From NCBI GenBank assembly GCA_016872795.1, contig VGYZ01000002.1, forward strand, positions 1-64,000: a stretch of 64,000 nucleotides of DNA, read 5' to 3'. Source of the stretch: Planctomycetota bacterium (GTDB lineage: Bacteria; Planctomycetota; UBA1135; GCA-002686595). Under the pieces are notes generated by a model, which did not search any database, had not been told where the DNA came from, and saw only the letters and a program-made list of their open reading frames with translations. Each line of letters starts with the position of its first letter. The stretch's first letter is position 1. The position numbers and the translations under genes were made by a program. Positions 12,997 to 55,094 of this stretch are shown in pieces.

Positions 12997-14052
12997 ATGA
13001 AGGTGGATATCGAGCCGAACCACAGCGAGCGGTGCTGGATCCAGCCACTCCGCGAGCTGTGCGCGGAAATCCGCACGCACGCTCGCGCCGCCATGACGGC
13101 GGCCGTCGAGGCCGGCGACCTCGACTTGGCCGCCCGCGCGGTCCGCCAAGGCGCAGGCGACATCACCTATGCGGTCGACGCGCGCGTCGAAGCGGCGATC
13201 GAGCGCTGGACCGGCCGAGTCGCGCGCACGCAGGCGCTCTCGGTGCTCACCGAGGACACAGGCTGGCGCCACCTCGGCCCCGACGGCGCGGGCGGAGTCC
13301 GCGAGTTCGCGGGCTTCGACCACGGCGGACCGCGCATCGCGCTCGATCCGATCGATGGCACGCGCAACTTGATGTGCGACCTGCGCTCGGCGTGGACTGT
13401 CGTGTCCTTTGCGCCGCCTGGCCCTGGCGCACCGCGGCTGCGCGATGTGTCGCTCGGAATCGTCAGCGAGATTCCCGACACGCGCGGCGGCCGCTACCGA
13501 CATCTCGCGGCCGTATGCGGGGAAGCCTGCAGCTTCGAGGAGCGCGAGCTCGCTGACGACGCACTCGTGCGCGCGAGAAAGCTCACGGCCAGCGACGACG
13601 CGCGCGTCGACCACGGCTACTTCCCGATCTTCCGTTACTCGCCGGACCAGCGGCCCGCACTCGCGCGCATCGAAGCGGACTTCACCGAGCGCCTGCGCAT
13701 CCATGAAGGCGCCAACCTGCGCCACTTCTTCGACGACCAGTACATCTCGAACGCCGGACAGCTGTTCCTGCTCGCGATCGGCACCTACCGCATGATCGCG
13801 GATGTGCGCGGCTGGCTCGCGGAGCGCATGGCGCATACAACCGTGAACTCGCACCCCTACGATGTCGCCGGCGCGATCTTCTGCGCGCGCGCGGCGGGCT
13901 GCACCGTCGAAGGGCCGCTCGGCGCGGAGCTCGACTTCGAGCTCGATGTCGTGACGCCGGTCAACTTCGTGGGCTTCGCCAACTCGGCCACTGCGCGGCG
14001 CATCCGCCCGCACCTCGAGGCCGCGCTGCGCGCGACGCCGCAAGCTACTTGA
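12997..14052 (+). CDS. Inositol monophosphatase family protein
   Basis: This 351-residue member of the lithium-sensitive phosphatase superfamily carries the metal motif LDPIDGTRN (about residues 117-125), an upstream acidic pair in LTEDTGW, and the C-terminal SHPYDVAGAIFCARAAGC (family W/HxDxAxG). It is longer than IMPase (about 270) because of an insertion between the two metal motifs (RVDHGYFPIFRYSPDQRPALARIE region) that I do not recognise. Likely substrates are a sugar or inositol phosphate, or PAP; sequence alone does not decide. The ATG at 12997 follows AGCAGG directly. Its stop overlaps the end of the convergent SGNH gene by 8 bp. Confidence 0.8.
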   Translation: MKVDIEPNHSERCWIQPLRELCAEIRTHARAAMTAAVEAGDLDLAARAVRQGAGDITYAVDARVEAAIERWTGRVARTQALSVLTEDTGWRHLGPDGAGGVREFAGFDHGGPRIALDPIDGTRNLMCDLRSAWTVVSFAPPGPGAPRLRDVSLGIVSEIPDTRGGRYRHLAAVCGEACSFEERELADDALVRARKLTASDDARVDHGYFPIFRYSPDQRPALARIEADFTERLRIHEGANLRHFFDDQYISNAGQLFLLAIGTYRMIADVRGWLAERMAHTTVNSHPYDVAGAIFCARAAGCTVEGPLGAELDFELDVVTPVNFVGFANSATARRIRPHLEAALRATPQAT

Positions 14053-15169
14053 GCGTGGCGAAGTGCTCGGCGAGCGCGCGGGAGGCGAACTCGGCGCCCG
14101 CGACGCTCAGGTGGCCGGAGTCGAGGAAGCTCTCCTCGCGGTACAGCACGCTCTTGTCCTGCAGGAAGAGCTCCCCGAGCGAGCGATAGAACGCGATTTG
14201 TGCGGGGCGCAGCGGGCGACCGCGGAAGTTGGGTTGGTCCAAGAACACGAGCCGGATGCCGCGCTCGCGGCACAGCCGCGCGAGCTTCTCGGCATACAGG
14301 CGTGTGACGCGGAAGCGCGCGGGATCCGCGAAGTCGTCGGAGCCCTTCCACTCGGCCGCGAGCGCTCGCTCGTAGCTGACCGCCGCGGCCTGCTTTTCCA
14401 CACTGCGGTGGGCCTCGCTTCCCTCCGCGCTGTCGAGCTCGATGCGGAAGTAGCCGCGTTCCTCGACCTGCCGCGCGATCTCGGCGCGCATCTTGGGCTC
14501 GCCCGGCATCCAGTACGGGCTCGCCCCGCGCTCCAGCGCGAAGTTGGCGAGCGTCCGCACGCAGTCCTCCGGCCCGCGACCGAGCACATCGAGCGCGAGG
14601 TCGACATTGAGCTGCGCGACCGACCAAGCATGGAAGATGCCGCCCATGTCGAAGCCCGCGCCAGACTTCTCGAAGCGCACGAACTCGCGGCCGTCGATGA
14701 ACTCGTAGGGTCGCTCCCACGCCATGGCGAGCGCGTCGAGCGGCTTGCCAAAGCGCGTCAGCGTCTTGTGCGGATACTCGGGCACATCGGAGAGCACGCC
14801 GCACTCGACATACACGACGCTGGGTGAGGGATGGCGCTCGAGCCAACGCTCCAGCGTCAGGTACGAGATGTGCCGCGCGTTGCCGAAGGTCGAGAGGTTG
14901 ACCGAGCGCACATCGCGCCCGAGCAGCTCCTTCGCACGCTGGTCGAAGAGCGCGGGCATCACACCGCGCGCGGTCTGGGAACTCCCGACGAACACGACTT
15001 CCGCATCGCGCTCCGCGCGCACCAACTCGCGCAGCGTCGCGTGCCGCGCATCGGCGCACAGCGCGAGCTCGAAGTGCTGCGAAACTGCGAGCGCGAGCGC
15101 GCAGAACGCGAGGAACCACAGCCCTGCGAGCGAGCTCTTCGAACGCAGCGGTGACATGGGAGCTTCCAT
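14045..15169 (-). CDS. SGNH/AlgX-like O-acyltransferase partner protein
   Basis: This 374-residue protein has an N-terminal signal anchor (SSLAGLWFLAFCALALAVSQ), then an SGNH-hydrolase-like region. VVFVGSSQTARGVMP is the block I motif with a candidate nucleophilic Ser, VNLSTFGNAR follows, and near the C-terminus FLDSGHLSVAGAEFASRAL gives the Asp-x-x-His pair. Proteins of this type (AlgJ/AlgX, PatB, DltD-like) complete acyl transfer started by an MBOAT membrane partner. The upstream MBOAT gene overlaps it by one base (TGATG), so translation is coupled. Likely role: periplasmic O-acetylation of a surface polysaccharide or peptidoglycan; the acceptor is unknown. Confidence 0.8.
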   Translation of the reverse strand: MEAPMSPLRSKSSLAGLWFLAFCALALAVSQHFELALCADARHATLRELVRAERDAEVVFVGSSQTARGVMPALFDQRAKELLGRDVRSVNLSTFGNARHISYLTLERWLERHPSPSVVYVECGVLSDVPEYPHKTLTRFGKPLDALAMAWERPYEFIDGREFVRFEKSGAGFDMGGIFHAWSVAQLNVDLALDVLGRGPEDCVRTLANFALERGASPYWMPGEPKMRAEIARQVEERGYFRIELDSAEGSEAHRSVEKQAAAVSYERALAAEWKGSDDFADPARFRVTRLYAEKLARLCRERGIRLVFLDQPNFRGRPLRPAQIAFYRSLGELFLQDKSVLYREESFLDSGHLSVAGAEFASRALAEHFATLK

Positions 15170-16623
15170 CAGAACTGGAAGTAGATGAACGGAGCCTTGG
15201 CGTAGGAGAGCGCGCCGAGTGTGCCAGCGAACAGGCACAGACACAGGCCCTGCGCGACCGCGGGCAGCGCGAGCCAGCGCGCGCGAAGAACCTCATGCGG
15301 CCACGCGCGCGGCGTGAAGTGAATGAGCGCGGCGACGCACAACGCCACGAGACCCGCGGAGGACATCACCGCCGCTCCCGTGCCCGGAGAGAGCGTGCAG
15401 AGCAGGCGCAGCATCTCGAGCGAACCCGCGAGGCCGCGATTGCCTTCCGCGAGCGTGCCGTTGCGGAAGAACAGCATGCTGAAAGCGACCACGCCGAACA
15501 CGCCGGCCCGTCGTGCCACGCGCTCCCAAAGTGGAGGGGCCGCGCGCTCCTCGCGCCTCGCAGGCGTGCCGAACGCCGCACCGACGAAGGTGAACACGCC
15601 GTGCATGAGACCCCAGATCACATAGTTCCAGCCCGCTCCGTGCCACAAGCCCGTGAGCAGCATCGTGCCCATCAGGTTGCGCAAGAACTCGAGCCGGTGC
15701 GCGCCTCGACCACCGAGAGGGAGAAACACATAGTCGCGAAACCAATTGGAGAGCGACATATGCCAGCGTCGCCAGAAGTCGCTGATCGACTGCGCCAGAA
15801 ACGGGCGCTCGAAGTTCTCGCACAGCTCGAAGCCCAGACAGGCCGCGGCTCCGATGGCGACATCCGAGTAGGCCGAGAAATCGAGGTAGAACTGGAAGAG
15901 CGCTCCACTGCAGCCCAGCGCGATGCCCTGCGCGCCATGTGCCGCCGGATCGGCGAACACGGGGTCGACGAGATGCTTGCCGATCACATCGGCGAGCAGC
16001 ACCTTCTTCGCAAGTCCCGTGACGATACGGTACAGCCCGCGAGCGACGCGGCCTTCGTCGTGACGGGCGGGAGTGTCGAGCTGCGGGAGGAAGTCTGTCG
16101 CGCGCACGATCGGACCTGCGACGAGCTGCGGGAAGAAGCTCACGAACAGGAAGAAGTCGAGCGGCGTGCGCGCCGGCGCGAGCTGCCGTCGGTAGATGTC
16201 GAATGTGTAGGACAGCGTCTGGAAGGTGTAGAAGCTGATGCCAGCGGGCAACACGATGTCCCACGGCACGAATGTCGACGCACGCTCGAAACCAGCGGCG
16301 GCCAGTCCGCGCGCGATGTTCTCGGCGAAGAAGTTGAAGTACTTGAAGTAGCCGAGCAGTCCGAGGTTGCCGATCAGGGAAGTCGCCAGCCATGCGCGTC
16401 GCACGCGTGGACTGTCGCTGCGGTGGATCGCGCCGCCACAGATCCAGTCGAGCGAGGCCGAGACCAGAATCAGGCCCAGAAACTTGACGTTCCAGCCCGC
16501 GTAGAAGACGCAGCTCGCCAGCACGAGCCAGACGATGCTCGCGCGGCGTTGGCGCGCGAGTGCCCAGTACCCGAAGTACACGAGCAGAAAGAAGCACACG
16601 AACTCGGTCGAGTTGAACGCCAT
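15169..16623 (-). CDS. MBOAT family membrane O-acyltransferase (AlgI-like)
   Basis: This 484-residue polytopic membrane protein has the MBOAT hallmarks: GYFKYFNFFAEN, LPAGISFYTFQTLSYTFDIYRR, FPQLVAGPIVR, DFSAYSDVAIGAAACLGF, FWRRWHMSLSNWFRDYVFLPLGG, and the catalytic-His block TGLWHGAGWNYVIWGLMHG. AlgI-type enzymes pass an acetyl group across the membrane for O-acetylation of extracellular glycans. ATG start at 16623. It is 25 bp downstream of the molybdopterin-fold gene and overlaps the SGNH gene by one base. With that partner it forms a two-gene O-acylation unit. Confidence 0.93.
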   Translation of the reverse strand: MAFNSTEFVCFFLLVYFGYWALARQRRASIVWLVLASCVFYAGWNVKFLGLILVSASLDWICGGAIHRSDSPRVRRAWLATSLIGNLGLLGYFKYFNFFAENIARGLAAAGFERASTFVPWDIVLPAGISFYTFQTLSYTFDIYRRQLAPARTPLDFFLFVSFFPQLVAGPIVRATDFLPQLDTPARHDEGRVARGLYRIVTGLAKKVLLADVIGKHLVDPVFADPAAHGAQGIALGCSGALFQFYLDFSAYSDVAIGAAACLGFELCENFERPFLAQSISDFWRRWHMSLSNWFRDYVFLPLGGRGAHRLEFLRNLMGTMLLTGLWHGAGWNYVIWGLMHGVFTFVGAAFGTPARREERAAPPLWERVARRAGVFGVVAFSMLFFRNGTLAEGNRGLAGSLEMLRLLCTLSPGTGAAVMSSAGLVALCVAALIHFTPRAWPHEVLRARWLALPAVAQGLCLCLFAGTLGALSYAKAPFIYFQF

Positions 16624-16648: not shown

Positions 16649-17209
16649 TCACGACAGGCGCTCCTCCTTCCACGGATCGCCGCGCGGATGGAACCCGCGA
16701 CGCTCCCAGAAACCGGGCCGTTCCTCGGCGTGCAGCTCGAGCGAGCGCAGCCACTTGACCGACTTCCAGCCGTAGCGTGCGGGCACGACGAGGCGCAAGG
16801 GACCGCCGTGCTCCAGCGCCAAGGTCTCACCCGCGAGCGCCGTGGCGAGCAGGACATCGGGCTCGAGGGCGTCCGCGAGCGCGAGCCAACTGTCGTAGCG
16901 CAGGCCGTCCGAGGCTCGCACGAAGCGCGCGCTCTCCCTCAGCGCCGCCCCCGCGAGGATGTCGCACAACCGTGCGCCGCGCCAGCGCAGCTTGCGCACG
17001 CTCCAGCCCGCGGCCGCGTGAAAATCCGCCTCGATCTCGACGGTCGAGAGCGCGCGCAGGTCCGGCAGGGTGAACACGCGCGGCCGCTCGAGTTCTCCAG
17101 ACAGCGTCAACGACCAGCCGGAACCATCGAACGGCGGCGGATCCCCCACTTGCCGGACCGGCAAGCGAACGACTTCGCGCTGGCCCGGGGGCAGCGGCGA
17201 CGCGCTCAT
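16649..17209 (-). CDS. Sulfite-oxidase-fold protein lacking the Mo-ligand Cys
   Basis: This 186-residue protein is a single oxidoreductase molybdopterin-binding domain related to YuiH-type sulfite-oxidase-like enzymes. Matching blocks are GELERPRVFTLPDLRAL, DFHAAAGWSV (62-71), KLRWRGARLCDIL, EHGGPLRLVVPARYGWKSVKWLRSLE and GFWERRGFHPRGDPWKEER. In the family the DFH is normally followed by Cys (DFHCVTxWS), which ligates molybdenum; here residue 65 is Ala. The fold and cofactor-binding arginines look intact, so it may bind the pterin without normal redox chemistry, or have another role. No signal peptide or Tat motif is seen. It starts by a 4-bp ATGA overlap with the histidine kinase. Confidence 0.82.
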   Translation of the reverse strand: MSASPLPPGQREVVRLPVRQVGDPPPFDGSGWSLTLSGELERPRVFTLPDLRALSTVEIEADFHAAAGWSVRKLRWRGARLCDILAGAALRESARFVRASDGLRYDSWLALADALEPDVLLATALAGETLALEHGGPLRLVVPARYGWKSVKWLRSLELHAEERPGFWERRGFHPRGDPWKEERLS

Positions 17210-18798
17210 GGCACCTTCGGGGAAGGGGCCACAGGCAGGACGACGCGCACGCGCGTGCCCTTGCCCACCGCGCTCTCCACGAACAGTGCGCCCTTGTGCT
17301 TGCGCACGATGCCGATCACCGCCGACAGGCCCAAGCCGCTGCCGGTGAACTTCGTGCTGAAGAACGGATCGAAGATGCGCGCGAGCACCTTGGGCTCGAT
17401 GCCGCAGCCCGTGTCAGCGATCTCGAGCACGAGATAATCGCCGCCCGGCATGCTCGGTGCGAAGGCCGCCTGCGCGAACGCGGAGGCATCGAAGCGTTCC
17501 ACGCGCGTCGCCACTTGAACGACGCCACCTTCCGGCCCGAACGACTCGAGCGCGTTGCGCACGAGATTCTGCGCGACCTGCACCACAGCCGACGGATCGG
17601 CGAGCAGCGCGGGGAGCTCGGATGCGAGCTGGCGCTCGAGTTTGACGCGCGCGTCCGGCGTGGGGCCGAGGTTCGCGAGGGCCTCGCGGACCGTATCGGA
17701 GAGGTGAATGCGCCGCACCGCCGAGATGTTCGAGCCTGCGTAGCTGAGCATCTGCTGGCACAGCATCGCCGCGCGCGAAGACGCCTGCAGGATGCGTTCC
17801 ATCTGACGCGCGAGAGCGCTGCCGTCCGCAGCGGACATGGCCGCGAGTTCAGCACTGCCAATGATGCTCGTCAGCAAGTTGTTGAAGTCGTGTGCGATAC
17901 CTCCGGCGAGCACACCGAGACTCTCGAGGCGCTGCACTTCCTGCGAGCGGCGCTCGAGCGAATGTCGTTCCTCGTCCGCGCGCACGCGCGGCGTGACATC
18001 CTCGATACCGTGCAACAACCCGATGCGCGTGTTCGAATCGTCGATGATCGGCCGCACCGCGCAGCGCAGCGTGCGCCCGTCCGTGAGACGGAACTCCCGC
18101 TCGATCGTTGCCCCGTGGCCCAGCCGGCGGCAGGTCTGCTCAAACTCGTTCCAGAGTTCGACATTCACCACGAGACCCGCGAGGTGTTGGTACAGCTCGC
18201 TAGCGGCCAAACGTCCCTGCCGCAGCGGCATCTCGATCGCGCCGAGCGCGAGCACCTCCAGTAGCGGCGCATTGAAGCGCAAGACGCGTCCGAAGCCGTG
18301 TTCGCTCACGAACAAGCCCGCGGGCAGGCTGTCGATCGTCGCGTGCAACAGAGCCTCCCGTCGGCGCAGCTCCGTCAGCGCATCGCGCTCGCGCGTGATG
18401 TCGCGAAACGTGGCGAGCACGGCGCGCGGCTTGCCCTCGGCCCGCGGCAGCAGGCGCGAGCTCACATTGATCCACACCAAGTCCCCCGACGGCCGATAGA
18501 CCCCCATCAACACACCCGCCTGCGCTGTGCCGCTGCGGAGTGTCACCATCGTTGGATGCTCCTCGCCGGGAAGCGGCGTGCCGTTGGCGCGCACACAGCG
18601 CCAGCGCGGATCGAGCGAAGTGCGTTTGCTGAGCTGCTCGCCGGTGAGTCCAAGGATGCGCTCTGCAGACGGGTTCCAGAACACGATCGCGCCGCTCTCT
18701 TCTTGCACCACGAGCCCCTCGCTCATCGCGTCGAGGGTCGTGCGCAGAACCTCGACCGTGGCCAGCGGCTGCGGGCCGTCCACATCCATCGCGCTCAT
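17206..18798 (-). CDS. PAS-domain sensor histidine kinase (soluble)
   Basis: This 530-residue kinase has no transmembrane helix. Two PAS-like domains come first (about 20-138 with GAIVFWNPSAERILGLTGEQL; about 147-272). The HisKA segment contains LAGGIAHDFNNLLTSIIG with phospho-acceptor His303, followed by an HATPase_c domain (NLVRNALES, IADTGCGI, FDPFFSTK, GSGLGLS). The HDFNN H-box is typical of the NtrB-like/hybrid kinase class. There is no receiver domain here and no response-regulator gene nearby, so its partner is elsewhere. The stop overlaps the start of the molybdopterin-fold gene (ATGA). It probably senses a cytoplasmic ligand or redox state. Confidence 0.9.
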   Translation of the reverse strand: MSAMDVDGPQPLATVEVLRTTLDAMSEGLVVQEESGAIVFWNPSAERILGLTGEQLSKRTSLDPRWRCVRANGTPLPGEEHPTMVTLRSGTAQAGVLMGVYRPSGDLVWINVSSRLLPRAEGKPRAVLATFRDITRERDALTELRRREALLHATIDSLPAGLFVSEHGFGRVLRFNAPLLEVLALGAIEMPLRQGRLAASELYQHLAGLVVNVELWNEFEQTCRRLGHGATIEREFRLTDGRTLRCAVRPIIDDSNTRIGLLHGIEDVTPRVRADEERHSLERRSQEVQRLESLGVLAGGIAHDFNNLLTSIIGSAELAAMSAADGSALARQMERILQASSRAAMLCQQMLSYAGSNISAVRRIHLSDTVREALANLGPTPDARVKLERQLASELPALLADPSAVVQVAQNLVRNALESFGPEGGVVQVATRVERFDASAFAQAAFAPSMPGGDYLVLEIADTGCGIEPKVLARIFDPFFSTKFTGSGLGLSAVIGIVRKHKGALFVESAVGKGTRVRVVLPVAPSPKVP

Positions 18799-18855: not shown

Positions 18856-20538
18856 TCAGGGCACATCGCGCGGCGCATCGAAACGCTTCAGGACGAGGCC
18901 TCCGAGAAACACCAGCGAGCCGATCTCGAAGCACAGAATGGCGACGCCGACGACCAGACCCAGACCGATCGACACGACATCAGGCAACTCCAGCGCGTAG
19001 TGCAGCAGCAGGTAAGGAAGCCCAGCGAGGCCCGCGCAAACTGCGAGCACCGTCGAGCGCAACAGCATGAGCACCATGGCGCGTCCCGCATTCTGCAGCG
19101 CGCCATCGTGCGCCGCGCCCGTTCGGATTGGCGAAAACAGGAATGTCGCATTGTCGATCGCGGTCCACGCCAGCACCGCGAAGGGCACCGAACCGACCAC
19201 CACGAGCAGGCGCGGATCCCAGCTTCCGTGGTACAGCGCGAGCGCGAGCACGCCGAGCGCGATCATGCCCGACACAAGCACCGTCTCCGGCACGAGCGTG
19301 GCGAGGAACAGCTTCCAAGGTGCGACGGGCCAACTGCGCAGGAGCCCGACTAGCTCGAGGTCCTCACGAAAGTCGAAGCGCAGTCCCAGACACAGGTAGA
19401 ATGTGCCGAAGCCGGCGACGATCAAGGAGCCGCGCAGCGCCGCATCGGCGTCCGGTTCACTGGCGACGATCGAGAACCCCACCACCCCGCACACGATCAG
19501 GCCGCCGAGCAGGAAACTCGCGCGCGACTTGCGCACGATCGTCACCGCCTTGCGCCAGGCGATCGCTCCGAATGGCCCGCGTCCCGCGAGCCACGGTGTG
19601 CGCCAAGTGCGCGTCCCAGCGCTCGCCGAGCCAGAGTTCGCAGCCAGCCCGCGGCGCGCGCGAGCGAGTCTGCGCGCGACATCCGCGGATGTTTCGAGGG
19701 AGAGCTCGCGAAAGTCGATGCCGATGCGCGGCACCGCGAGCCAAAGTGTGGCGAAGATCGCCACGCAGCCGAGGAAAGGCGGCCAGAACGAGGCGGCATC
19801 GAGGGCCGTCATGCACGCCACCCACGGCGTGAACGGCAAGCCGAGCGCGACCACGAACGGATGCTCCGCGAGGAACGAGAACAGCTCGTCGTGGCTCTCG
19901 AACTCCGCGTGAGCATCGCTCTCGAAGAACCCGCCCTGTAGGACCACGACCACCAGCGTCACCACGAGCGCGAAGGAAATCCAGCGCCACGGGAGCTTCG
20001 CGAGCGTGCCAGACAGTCGGTTCTCCGCATCGCCGAGCACCAGCGACAGCCCTTGACCGAACAGCGGCAATGTGAGCAGCGCCGAAACGAGTCCGGCGAA
20101 GGCGTAGAGAGGCTCCGGTGCGCGGCGCGAGAAAATCCAGCCGAAGAACAGTCCCCCAAAGAGCGAACGCACGAGCGCGGAACGCAGTCGGTAGCGGATC
20201 AGTGCGGCGCGCGGAATCGGAGCGGAGAACAAGCTCTCGATCTCGGATGCCTGCAGGTACAGGCCGCGCATCGAGAAGGCGCTCGACACCGTGAGTGTCG
20301 CCATCGTGAGCAGGCCGCCGCGCGCGAACAGCGCGAGCCGCTCGACCTGCAGCACCTCCGGCCCTTGACCCGTGCCCAGCAGTACGTTGAGCAGACACAG
20401 TGTGATGACGGCCGCACCGAGCAGCGCGAGCGTCGCCCCCTTCGGCGTGCGCAGCCTCCGCCATTGTCGGCGCCAGAAACCGGCGCGCTTGCGCCGCTCG
20501 AACAGCGCCAGCGCCAGCTCGCCCTCGCGAGATCTCAC
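18856..20538 (-). CDS. ABC exporter permease (ABC-2-like)
   Basis: This 560-residue polytopic protein has roughly a dozen hydrophobic segments arranged as two similar halves. Examples are LALLGAAVITLCLLNVLLG, ISFALVVTLVVVVLQGG, SFLLGGLIVCGVVGFSIV and VVSIGLGLVVGVAILCFEIGSLVFLGG. The cytoplasmic stretches are Arg-rich. It starts at a GTG forming a 4-bp GTGA overlap with the ATPase gene, so the two are translationally coupled and form one transporter. The cargo is unknown; nothing in the permease points to xylose despite the neighbouring xylose genes. Confidence 0.8.
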   Translation of the reverse strand: MRSREGELALALFERRKRAGFWRRQWRRLRTPKGATLALLGAAVITLCLLNVLLGTGQGPEVLQVERLALFARGGLLTMATLTVSSAFSMRGLYLQASEIESLFSAPIPRAALIRYRLRSALVRSLFGGLFFGWIFSRRAPEPLYAFAGLVSALLTLPLFGQGLSLVLGDAENRLSGTLAKLPWRWISFALVVTLVVVVLQGGFFESDAHAEFESHDELFSFLAEHPFVVALGLPFTPWVACMTALDAASFWPPFLGCVAIFATLWLAVPRIGIDFRELSLETSADVARRLARARRGLAANSGSASAGTRTWRTPWLAGRGPFGAIAWRKAVTIVRKSRASFLLGGLIVCGVVGFSIVASEPDADAALRGSLIVAGFGTFYLCLGLRFDFREDLELVGLLRSWPVAPWKLFLATLVPETVLVSGMIALGVLALALYHGSWDPRLLVVVGSVPFAVLAWTAIDNATFLFSPIRTGAAHDGALQNAGRAMVLMLLRSTVLAVCAGLAGLPYLLLHYALELPDVVSIGLGLVVGVAILCFEIGSLVFLGGLVLKRFDAPRDVP

Positions 20539-21308
20539 CGCGGAGCGCCTCGGCCGTCGACGCGCGCGACGCCCTCGCCCGTCGCGGCGAAGAAGATCTC
20601 CTCCAGCGAGCCGCGCGCCTGCTCGGGAAAACGCACGCGAGCCTCGTCCAGCGTGCCTTCGAACACCTTGCGGCCGCGGTCGAGGATCAAAAGCCGCGTG
20701 GCAAGCTCCTCGATCAGCGCGAGCAGGTGCGACGAGAGGATCACCGTCGTCCCCTCGCGCGCGAGTTCCTCGATCTCGTGCTTGGCTGAACGAATGCCGC
20801 GCGGATCGAGCCCCGAGAGCGGCTCGTCCATCAGGACCAGCGCGGGCCGCGCGATCCAGGCGCAGCAGAACGCGAGCTTCTGACGCATGCCGCGCGAGAG
20901 CTCGCCGCCGAACGCATCGCGCTTCTCGCCGAGCTCGAAGCGCGCGAGCAGCTCGTCCGCGCGCGAGCGCCAGTCGCGCTGGCCGTAGAGCGCCGCCGTG
21001 AACTCGAGGTGCTCGAGCACCGTGAGCGCGTCGAAAGGCTGCGGGTCGTCGGGAATCCAGCGCATGGCGCGCTTGGCGCGCTCCTCGTCCCGCGCGAGAT
21101 CGAAGCCGGCGACCGCGATGCGCCCTTCCTTCACGGGCAGCACGCCCGCGATGGTGCGCAGCGTCGTGGTCTTGCCGGCGCCGTTGGGGCCGACGAGCCC
21201 GAGGATCTCGCCGGGGTGCAGCTGGAACGAGAGGGAGTCGACGGCGCGGTGGGTCTCGTAGGAGCGAGAGAACCCCTCGACCGAAAGCACGACCGGCCGC
21301 GTGTCCAT
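20535..21308 (-). CDS. ABC transporter ATP-binding protein
   Basis: This 257-residue nucleotide-binding subunit has Walker A VGPNGAGKTT (39-48), the signature GGELSRGMRQKLAF, Walker B ALVLMDEP with LSGLDPRG, and the H-loop ILSSHLLALIEE. The signature reads LSRGM rather than LSGGQ, as in ABC-2/CcmA-type exporters. The start is placed at the ATG (21308); a GTG at 21344 would overlap the xylB stop as GTGA and cannot be excluded. It is coupled to the downstream permease. Confidence 0.92.
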   Translation of the reverse strand: MDTRPVVLSVEGFSRSYETHRAVDSLSFQLHPGEILGLVGPNGAGKTTTLRTIAGVLPVKEGRIAVAGFDLARDEERAKRAMRWIPDDPQPFDALTVLEHLEFTAALYGQRDWRSRADELLARFELGEKRDAFGGELSRGMRQKLAFCCAWIARPALVLMDEPLSGLDPRGIRSAKHEIEELAREGTTVILSSHLLALIEELATRLLILDRGRKVFEGTLDEARVRFPEQARGSLEEIFFAATGEGVARVDGRGAPR

Positions 21309-52905: not shown

Positions 52906-55094
52906 AGCCGCTCCTCCGGATGCAGGGCGAGCCACGCTTCGCACAGCTTTTCGCTCGTCGCCGGCACGCTGCACATGTGCAGCCCGAGCGCGTCTTCGAT
53001 CGCCGACAGCACCGCGGGCGCGCCGCCATCCATCGGCATCTCCCCCACGCCCTTGGCGCCGAAGGGCCCGCGCGAGAACGGCACGGGCACGAGCTCGGTG
53101 CGGAACTCCGGCGCGTCGAGCGCGGTGGGAATGATGCAGGTCGCCATGCGGTCCTGCAAGCAGCGGCCGTCGCGCGAAGTCACGACCTCGAGGTGCGCGA
53201 AGCCCACGGCCTGCAGCGAGCCGCCCTCGAACTGGCCGGTCACCATCTGGGGCTGGATCGGGGTGCCGCAGTCGACCGCGCTCGTCAAGCGCGTGACACG
53301 CACCTCGAAGGTGTCGAGGTCGACCTCGACCTCGGCCACATCGGCCGCCCAGCCGTAGGCCGGGTACGCATCGCCCGTGTAGGTCTCCTCGTTCCACTCG
53401 AGCGTCGGCGGCGGCTCGTAGCGCAGCTCCACGCGCCCGTCGCCGCCCTGCGCGAGAAAGGCCCGCGCGCGCGTGCGGAACTCGCCCGCGCCGATGCGTT
53501 CCCGCAACTCGCGACAGGCGCGCGCGAGCACGCCTCCGACCACCATGCAGGTGCGCGATGCGACGGTCGGCCCGGAGTTCGGCACCGCGTGCGTGTCGGG
53601 CTGCGCGATCGCCACATCGTCCTGCTCGCAGCCGAGCGCCTCGGCTGCGATCGCTTGGAACAGCGTCTCCGTTCCCTGGCCGAACTCCGTGGAAGCCGCG
53701 CGCACCAGCGCGCGCCCGTCAGCCTCGAGCTCGAGCGCGACCTTGCCCTGCAGCAGGGTCTCGCCAGCGCCGGTGAAGCCCGCGCCGTGGAAGAAGAACG
53801 AGAGCCCGACACCGCGCCGCACGCGCCCGGCTCGCGGGGCGCGCCACGCGTGGCGGTCGAAGCCCGTGAGCGCTGCGATGCGCTCCATCACTGCCTGTGA
53901 GCCGACGCTCTCGCGCAAGAGCTGGCCAGTCGCCGTCGTGTCGCCCTCGCGCAGCAGGTTGCGCCGCCGCAGCTCGAACGGGTGGAGCCTGAGCTCGTGC
54001 GCGATGCGGTCCATGTGCCGCTCGATCGCGAAGCAGGTCTGCGGCGCGCCGAAGCCGCGGAACGCGCCGTACGGCACATGGTTCGTCGCGACCGCGCGTC
54101 CCTCGATGCGAATGTGGCCGCAGCGGTAGGGCCCGGCGGCGTGGATGCAGCCGCGTGAGAGCACCACGGGCGAGAGCGTCGTGTAGGCGCCGCCGTCGAG
54201 CAGCACATCGATCTCCATCGCAAGCAGGCGACCGTCGCGATCCACCGCCGTGCGATGACGCACGCGCGAGGGATGACGCTTGTGCGTCGCAACGAGGTCC
54301 TCGTGCCGGTCATAGAGCATGCTGACCGGACGGCCCGCGCGCAGCGCTAGCAGCGCCGCATGGCAGGCGAGCACCGAGGGATAGTCCTCCTTGCCGCCGA
54401 AGCCACCGCCGGTCGCCTCCTGCACGACTCGCACGCGCTCTGGCGGCAGTGCAAGCGCCCGGCCCAGCGCCTTCTGCACGTAGTACGGGCACTGCATCGA
54501 GCCGCGAACGACGAGCGTGCCTTGCGCGTCGGGCGGGTACGCGACCATGCCCTGCGGCTCGATGTACATCTGCTCCTGCGAGGCCGTCTCGTACTCGCCC
54601 TCGATCACGAGCTCGGCCCGCGCGAGCGCGGCCGGAGCGTCACCCTTGCGGATCTCGATACGCTTGAACACGCGCTGCGACTCGCGCGCGTCGAGCAGCG
54701 GCGTGCGCGGCGCGATGCGCGGCCGGATCGCGGCCAGCGCCGCGCACAGCGTGGCCTCGTCGGGCGCCGCCACGAGCAGCAGCGCCTCGCCCATGTGCTC
54801 GACCTCGCGCGCCGCGAGCAGCGGCATGTCCTCCGCGAGCATCGCGACCACATTGGCGCCCGGCACATCCGCTGGACCGGCGAGCGTGCAGCGCGTGAAG
54901 TCGAAGTCCGGATCGAAGTCGAAGCCCTCGAGCGTGCCGCGCGCGACCGGCGAGCGCACAGTCCCGCCGAGCCACGCACCGGGGACCGCGACATCCGCCA
55001 CATAGCGCGCGTGGCCGGACACCTTCGCCGGCCCGTCGGGGCGAGCCAGCCGGGCCCCGACAAAACGTCTCTCCATGGCTTCAACATCCCCCAC
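52902..55094 (-). CDS. Xanthine dehydrogenase family, Mo-binding subunit
   Basis: This 730-residue large subunit oxidises a purine or other N-heterocycle at a molybdopterin centre. It shows RPDGPAKVSGHARYVADV, VQEATGGGFGGKEDYP, PYGAFRGFGAPQ, EFGQGTETLFQAIAAEALG and the catalytic Glu in GAKGVGEMPMDGGAPAV. The GAFRGFG block without the AYRCSFR loop separates it from carbon-monoxide dehydrogenase and points to xanthine, nicotinate or similar substrates. The GTG at 55094 has AAGGGG 7 bases upstream; the ATG at 55076 is the alternative. It heads a tightly overlapping operon. Confidence 0.93.
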   Translation of the reverse strand: MGDVEAMERRFVGARLARPDGPAKVSGHARYVADVAVPGAWLGGTVRSPVARGTLEGFDFDPDFDFTRCTLAGPADVPGANVVAMLAEDMPLLAAREVEHMGEALLLVAAPDEATLCAALAAIRPRIAPRTPLLDARESQRVFKRIEIRKGDAPAALARAELVIEGEYETASQEQMYIEPQGMVAYPPDAQGTLVVRGSMQCPYYVQKALGRALALPPERVRVVQEATGGGFGGKEDYPSVLACHAALLALRAGRPVSMLYDRHEDLVATHKRHPSRVRHRTAVDRDGRLLAMEIDVLLDGGAYTTLSPVVLSRGCIHAAGPYRCGHIRIEGRAVATNHVPYGAFRGFGAPQTCFAIERHMDRIAHELRLHPFELRRRNLLREGDTTATGQLLRESVGSQAVMERIAALTGFDRHAWRAPRAGRVRRGVGLSFFFHGAGFTGAGETLLQGKVALELEADGRALVRAASTEFGQGTETLFQAIAAEALGCEQDDVAIAQPDTHAVPNSGPTVASRTCMVVGGVLARACRELRERIGAGEFRTRARAFLAQGGDGRVELRYEPPPTLEWNEETYTGDAYPAYGWAADVAEVEVDLDTFEVRVTRLTSAVDCGTPIQPQMVTGQFEGGSLQAVGFAHLEVVTSRDGRCLQDRMATCIIPTALDAPEFRTELVPVPFSRGPFGAKGVGEMPMDGGAPAVLSAIEDALGLHMCSVPATSEKLCEAWLALHPEERL

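Follow-up and report, generated by a model that had tools for sequence, protein, structure and literature searches.

A clade of short SUOX-fold proteins in Planctomycetota with alanine in place of the molybdenum-ligand cysteine, and its possible role as a cytoplasmic pterin-binding regulator

The stretch of Planctomycetota DNA considered here (the window; 64,000 nucleotides of contig VGYZ01000002.1, assembly GCA_016872795.1) carries a run of six genes, all on the reverse strand from 21308 down to 14045, that encode in this order an ABC transporter ATPase, an exporter permease, a histidine kinase, a small protein of the SUOX fold, an MBOAT O-acyltransferase and the partner of the latter, separated by short gaps or joined by 4-nt overlaps (Table 1). 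The translation of the SUOX-fold gene begins with MSASPLPPGQREVVRL and holds ...EADFHAAAGWSVRK..., and its family block reads DFHAAAGWS. PF00174 (Oxidored_molyb) is the only Pfam domain of the protein (E = 4.7e-34; score 117.8 bits, cut-off 24), which at 186 residues is presumably too short to hold the second domain that sulfite oxidases have. A profile search of the same genome (3.78 Mb in 162 contigs, 91% complete) returned no second PF00174 match. A tie to a riboswitch was considered and set aside, as Rfam at gathering thresholds matched nothing in the window and four further loci (L133, L135, L138, L139) except two tRNAs; two tandem tRNA genes lie in the window at 2366-2436 and 2459-2529 on the reverse strand.

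Table 1. Genes and codons of the SUOX gene cluster in the window
Feature	Coordinates	Strand	Basis
SUOX-fold protein without the Mo-ligand Cys (PF00174; 186 aa; signal peptide not visible)	16649..17209	-	ORF, Pfam, AlphaFold, structure matches
Codon 65, GCG, Ala replacing the Mo-ligand Cys	17015..17017	-	codon reading and homologue alignment
Codon 173, TTC, Phe replacing the active-site Tyr	16691..16693	-	profile alignment
Soluble PAS-PAS-HisKA-HATPase histidine kinase; its last 4 nt (17206-17209) are shared with the SUOX start	17206..18798	-	Pfam, hydropathy
ABC_export permease, PF16962	18856..20538	-	Pfam, locus comparison
ABC transporter ATPase, same gene cluster	20535..21308	-	locus comparison
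MBOAT O-acyltransferase	15169..16623	-	Pfam, locus comparison
MBOAT partner, no Pfam match, SGNH/AlgJ-like by eye	14045..15157	-	locus comparison

The sequence-only reading had singled out this protein for an alanine, Ala65, at the place of the cysteine that ligates molybdenum, and the observation is fully borne out. The codon GCG differs from TGC and TGT at all three bases, so that a single-base error cannot have made it, and alanine stands at the same position in 11 related genomes, or 12 with the window (counted by genome, with contigs of one assembly taken once). Cysteine was not found at the aligned position in the close relatives, where proteins with 89% (L032), 83% (L033) and 71-72% (L034 and L035) identity to that of the window all carry alanine, as do more distant ones at 47-52% (L036-L038 and L065); homologues outside this group have DFHCVT or a similar block. 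Nor did sequence comparison across the 12 Ala proteins reveal a cysteine elsewhere that might fill the molybdenum site, and at that level a substitute is ruled out, since no cysteine position is common to the clade and five of the 12 have no cysteine at all. Seven pairs of clade members give dN/dS ratios of 0.13-0.32 (NG86), and the one Cys-type pair compared gives 0.24; the Ala protein is under purifying selection. Twelve genomes, a three-base codon difference and these ratios together rule out a sequencing error or a pseudogene.

Among 127 distinct homologues that were aligned, site 65 is alanine in 12 and cysteine in 115. The Ala proteins belong together: all 12 fall in one clade (branch support 100/98; recovered in 100% of 200 bootstrap trees of the 127-row tree), which spans three genera of one family, namely g1, to which the window belongs, g11 and g13. 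Across the order, homologues occur at 69 places in 56 of 154 genomes, and the residue at site 65 is readable at 61 of these (12 Ala and 49 Cys), the remaining eight being C-terminal contig fragments or lacking an alignment at column 65; outside the order, the site is covered for the homologue rows aligned, which are fewer than all profile matches. The direct relatives of the clade are Cys-type short proteins of about 185-200 residues, annotated as 'sulfite oxidase-like oxidoreductase', with the same length and fold and 33-49% identity; this is presumably the family that goes by the name YuiH in B. subtilis. Five genomes (G268, G293, G415, G416 and G417) hold an Ala copy together with a separate Cys-type paralogue. 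That paralogue (L142-L147) has an N-terminal extension of about 50 residues and, where contigs allow its surroundings to be seen, a squalene-cyclase-like toroid match on one side (L143) and a HEAT-repeat match on the other (L142). No publication on the Ala clade was found in the literature searched, a search that left most subscription journals outside.

That the other motifs of the fold are conserved, as had been claimed at the outset, is largely but not wholly correct. Twenty-two sites are at least 98% identical in the 115 Cys-type rows, and 18 of them are unchanged in every Ala protein, among them H64, G135, P137, R139, K149, K152 and W153; G166, W168, E169 and G172 are likewise kept in all 12. 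R139, K149 and K152 are presumably the residues that bind the molybdopterin phosphate. Lost in all 12 are C65, V66 (replaced by Ala or Gly) and Y173, with W148 lost in three. The claim thus overlooked a second residue: in the profile alignment Y173 corresponds to the active-site tyrosine of chicken sulfite oxidase (Tyr322) and of SorA (Tyr236), and its position holds Phe in six Ala proteins, including that of the window, Arg in four, Ala in one and Met in one, against Tyr in 114 of the 115 Cys-type rows, all of which have Cys65 and Val66. Mutants of this tyrosine are available in the PDB (3hc2, Y322F; 2c9x, Y236F), and Tyr236 is described as important for the molybdenum site in the title of a reference listed in PMC9370002. 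In the loop at 98-109, D101-G102-Y105-D106 is already present in Cys-type sisters (L119 and L120 among them) and partly in L008 and L121, so the changes unique to the Ala proteins are those around the molybdenum. Loss of the cysteine and tyrosine with retention of the rest of the pocket suggests binding without the old chemistry.

The AlphaFold model of the window protein (mean pLDDT 94.8, pTM 0.91) has its best fold matches in MsrP, SorA, SoxC, SorT and the plant and chicken sulfite oxidases, with Z of 15.0-21.7 to chains of the SO family. The window protein shares with MsrP (YedY), SorA, SoxC and the plant and chicken enzymes the fold and part of the pocket residues, but not the cysteine ligand or the active-site tyrosine, and its scores against the NCBIfam equivalogs lie far under the curated cut-offs (MsrP 63.5 against 207, SorA 46.5 against 600, SoxC 57.2 against 420). 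Of the features of the Moco-dependent SUOX family (PF00174) as a whole, it keeps the fold and the other conserved pocket residues (R139, K149, K152 and others). The next group of fold matches is PruR (Foldseek E of 3e-7 to 3e-6; Z of 13.5-15.3 over 122-129 residues), whose chains cover approximately residues 29-160 of the window protein (27-162 for 7kp2, 32-160 for 7kom). The N-terminal 28 and C-terminal 26 residues (1-28 and 161-186), absent from PruR, align to the Moco enzymes. No secretion signal is visible at the start of the protein, and its most hydrophobic 19-residue window (hydropathy 1.29) begins only at residue 109. A SUOX-like fold was also matched in entry 9a64, a YLAL-SDHA integrative model, at Z 13.0.

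Gene order bears on what such a protein might act upon. The partners first named for it were the histidine kinase and the acyltransferase pair, and comparison of the 12 Ala loci upholds them only in part: the kinase is present in eight (every Ala locus of g1 and g13) and the MBOAT gene with its partner in six, the pair being found in only part of the kinase-bearing group, but neither occurs in g11, where the SUOX gene comes immediately after that of the permease. The Ala clade as a whole is thus not tied to these neighbours, and only the exporter permease is kept in the same gene cluster in all 12. Five Cys-type sisters (L008, L009, L121, L123 and L129) likewise stand directly after a homologous permease. 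Such constancy would suit a protein that holds no cofactor and serves the ABC exporter as a scaffold or accessory subunit, with the kinase an operon neighbour that makes no physical contact, as would the genus member G396, an incomplete genome that has neither the permease nor the Ala gene. However, the exporter is found in 57 of 81 genomes of the family and most of the 30 loci examined have no SUOX gene in the flank covered, so the SUOX protein is not needed for export, and strictly conserved pocket residues are unexpected in a pure scaffold; this account is possible, but on balance somewhat unlikely. In g11 (L136-L139) the genes on the flanks of the exporter-SUOX pair include some whose products have prepilin-like N-termini, as judged by eye, and one for a protein of approximately 1085-1090 residues (truncated where the contig ends in L136); the L138 copy of this protein shows seven carboxypeptidase-regulatory-like domain stretches.

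Where the kinase is present, the two genes are closely coupled: in six of the eight loci the kinase stop and a SUOX start share 4 nt, and in the remaining two a start follows the stop after 8-10 nt. The kinase is soluble (maximal hydropathy window 1.32, no hydrophobic segment), has PAS, HisKA and HATPase domains only, and possesses the His box in all eight aligned sequences. One kinase (G450; L134:9071-10216) is without the first PAS domain and is still encoded directly before the SUOX gene. The simplest order of events is an exporter beside a Cys-type SUOX gene, then the loss of the cysteine and tyrosine, and then the arrival of the kinase. Consequently, the kinase is ruled out as the cause of the cysteine loss, given that the tree and the locus comparison make the alanine older than the kinase link and that g11 has the alanine without any kinase.

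Loss of Moco synthesis is likewise excluded as the cause, as the genome of the window has one match each to MoaE, MoaA and MoeA. Among the other Ala genomes, G394 and G397 are without a MoeA match and G417 without a MoaE match, all three being incomplete assemblies. Each of the 13 genomes searched also encodes members of two further molybdoenzyme families; Moco is therefore available, although proteins besides the Ala protein may use it. Within the window, at 53955-54677 on the reverse strand and about 37 kb from the SUOX gene, there is a xanthine-dehydrogenase-type MoCoBD_1 domain, and in G395, G397 and G293 this domain shares a contig with the SUOX gene at a distance of about 37-48 kb. Separately, in each of six genomes (G268, G394, G340, G359, G415 and G416) the coding sequence of one PF00384 enzyme contains one in-frame TGA codon, as seen in selenocysteine formate dehydrogenases.

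In some molybdoenzyme families the protein supplies no ligand to molybdenum, and the Ala protein might still be an enzyme, with Mo-molybdopterin held by its pterin side alone, an oxo or hydroxo ligand in place of the cysteine, and a different reaction. The 18 unchanged sites and the synthesis of Moco in the same genome are consistent with this, as is the survival of the cofactor after cysteine loss in a sulfite oxidase variant, C207S, which still shows pyranopterin Raman bands according to PMC9370002. Against it, the cysteine and the active-site tyrosine have both gone, the tyrosine position has drifted across four different residues, and the conserved neighbours of the Ala loci include no recognisable redox partner (a cytochrome, for example). 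Continued catalysis is therefore unlikely.

A Cys-less SUOX fold can serve as a pterin sensor, as PMC13259868 sets out for PruR, a pterin-binding SUOX-fold protein of the periplasm in Agrobacterium and other Proteobacteria that is without the molybdenum-ligand cysteine and pairs with DcpA or, in DTB systems, with a histidine kinase; it carries Trp where the cysteine would be, is secreted by way of an N-terminal signal and has a truncated pocket. PruR and the window protein both have the SUOX fold, have lost the cysteine, and are encoded by a gene coupled to that of a signalling protein. Nevertheless, the window protein cannot be called a PruR, from which it differs in four features: alanine rather than Trp at the cysteine position, no visible signal peptide as opposed to secretion into the periplasm, a full-length pocket instead of a truncated pterin site, and a soluble kinase without a periplasmic domain where PruR is partnered by a DcpA-type periplasmic domain. 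This comparison rests on the PruR structures (PDB 7KOS, 7KOU, 7KP2, 7RKB and 7KOM) and their published description; the 127-row tree, which contains no PruR row, sets the Ala clade among the Cys-type enzymes, and its origin would thus be independent of PruR. One might still suppose a cytoplasmic counterpart of PruR that senses a small reduced pterin (e.g., tetrahydromonapterin) and not Moco, with the histidine kinase in the place of DcpA. The logic of PruR and its DTB kinase variants (PMC13259868), the kinase gene coupled in eight of 12 loci, and the presence of PruR among the fold matches would accord with such a sensor, but the Trp, the secretion signal and the truncated pocket of PruR are all missing, which makes it very unlikely.

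The precedent of PruR, together with cofactor retention without the cysteine in the C207S variant and a listed crystal structure of chicken sulfite oxidase C185A (PDB 3hbq), favours a cytoplasmic regulatory protein that binds Moco or a pterin. The best explanation, at a probability of about 0.4, is that a retired SUOX enzyme now binds such a molecule as a cytoplasmic regulatory ligand and, in the genus of the window, probably feeds the soluble PAS kinase. Its ancestor would have been a short Moco-dependent SUOX-fold enzyme encoded behind the ABC exporter; molybdenum chemistry would have been lost with C65A, the change of V66 to Ala or Gly and the replacement of Y173, the rest of the pocket being kept; and the protein would then most likely bind molybdopterin, Moco or a related pterin in the cytoplasm. 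In g1 and g13 its state would be reported to the kinase, which is encoded by an overlapping or adjoining gene and is probably the output there; in g11, which has no kinase, it would act on something else or on the exporter, the possible output in that genus. Against this, the PAS domains of the kinase could themselves sense something else, and since residues 1-28 and 161-186 are kept here and absent in PruR, the ligand preference of the latter need not carry over. The initial reading (a sensor, a scaffold or altered chemistry) stands in part: the retained fold, the specific loss of the cysteine, the clade and the purifying selection are borne out and a sensor has its precedent in PruR, but the tie of the clade to the particular partners named is not supported. 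A bolder form of the pterin-binding account, in which the protein is a sensor of Moco itself that takes up cytoplasmic Moco or molybdopterin and signals its occupancy to both the soluble kinase and the ABC exporter, having arisen independently of PruR by another residue route (Ala and not Trp, with the pocket not truncated), appears improbable.

In the Ala clade the SUOX fold seems to have been retired a second time, separately from PruR and outside the Proteobacteria, and by the features compared the clade may represent a further kind of retired SUOX-fold pterin binder distinct from PruR. With the full pocket kept, no visible secretion signal and Cys-type sisters that occupy the corresponding place in the operon, the change from a molybdoenzyme to a binding protein can be followed and tested one residue at a time, and if the Ala protein binds Moco it becomes a candidate protein sensor of Moco. 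Among 842 plasmid records that matched a search for PruR, five regions were examined, in which no PruR-DcpA pair was found; the match was an annotated molybdopterin protein beside a cytochrome b gene in three of them and fell in an unannotated stretch in two.
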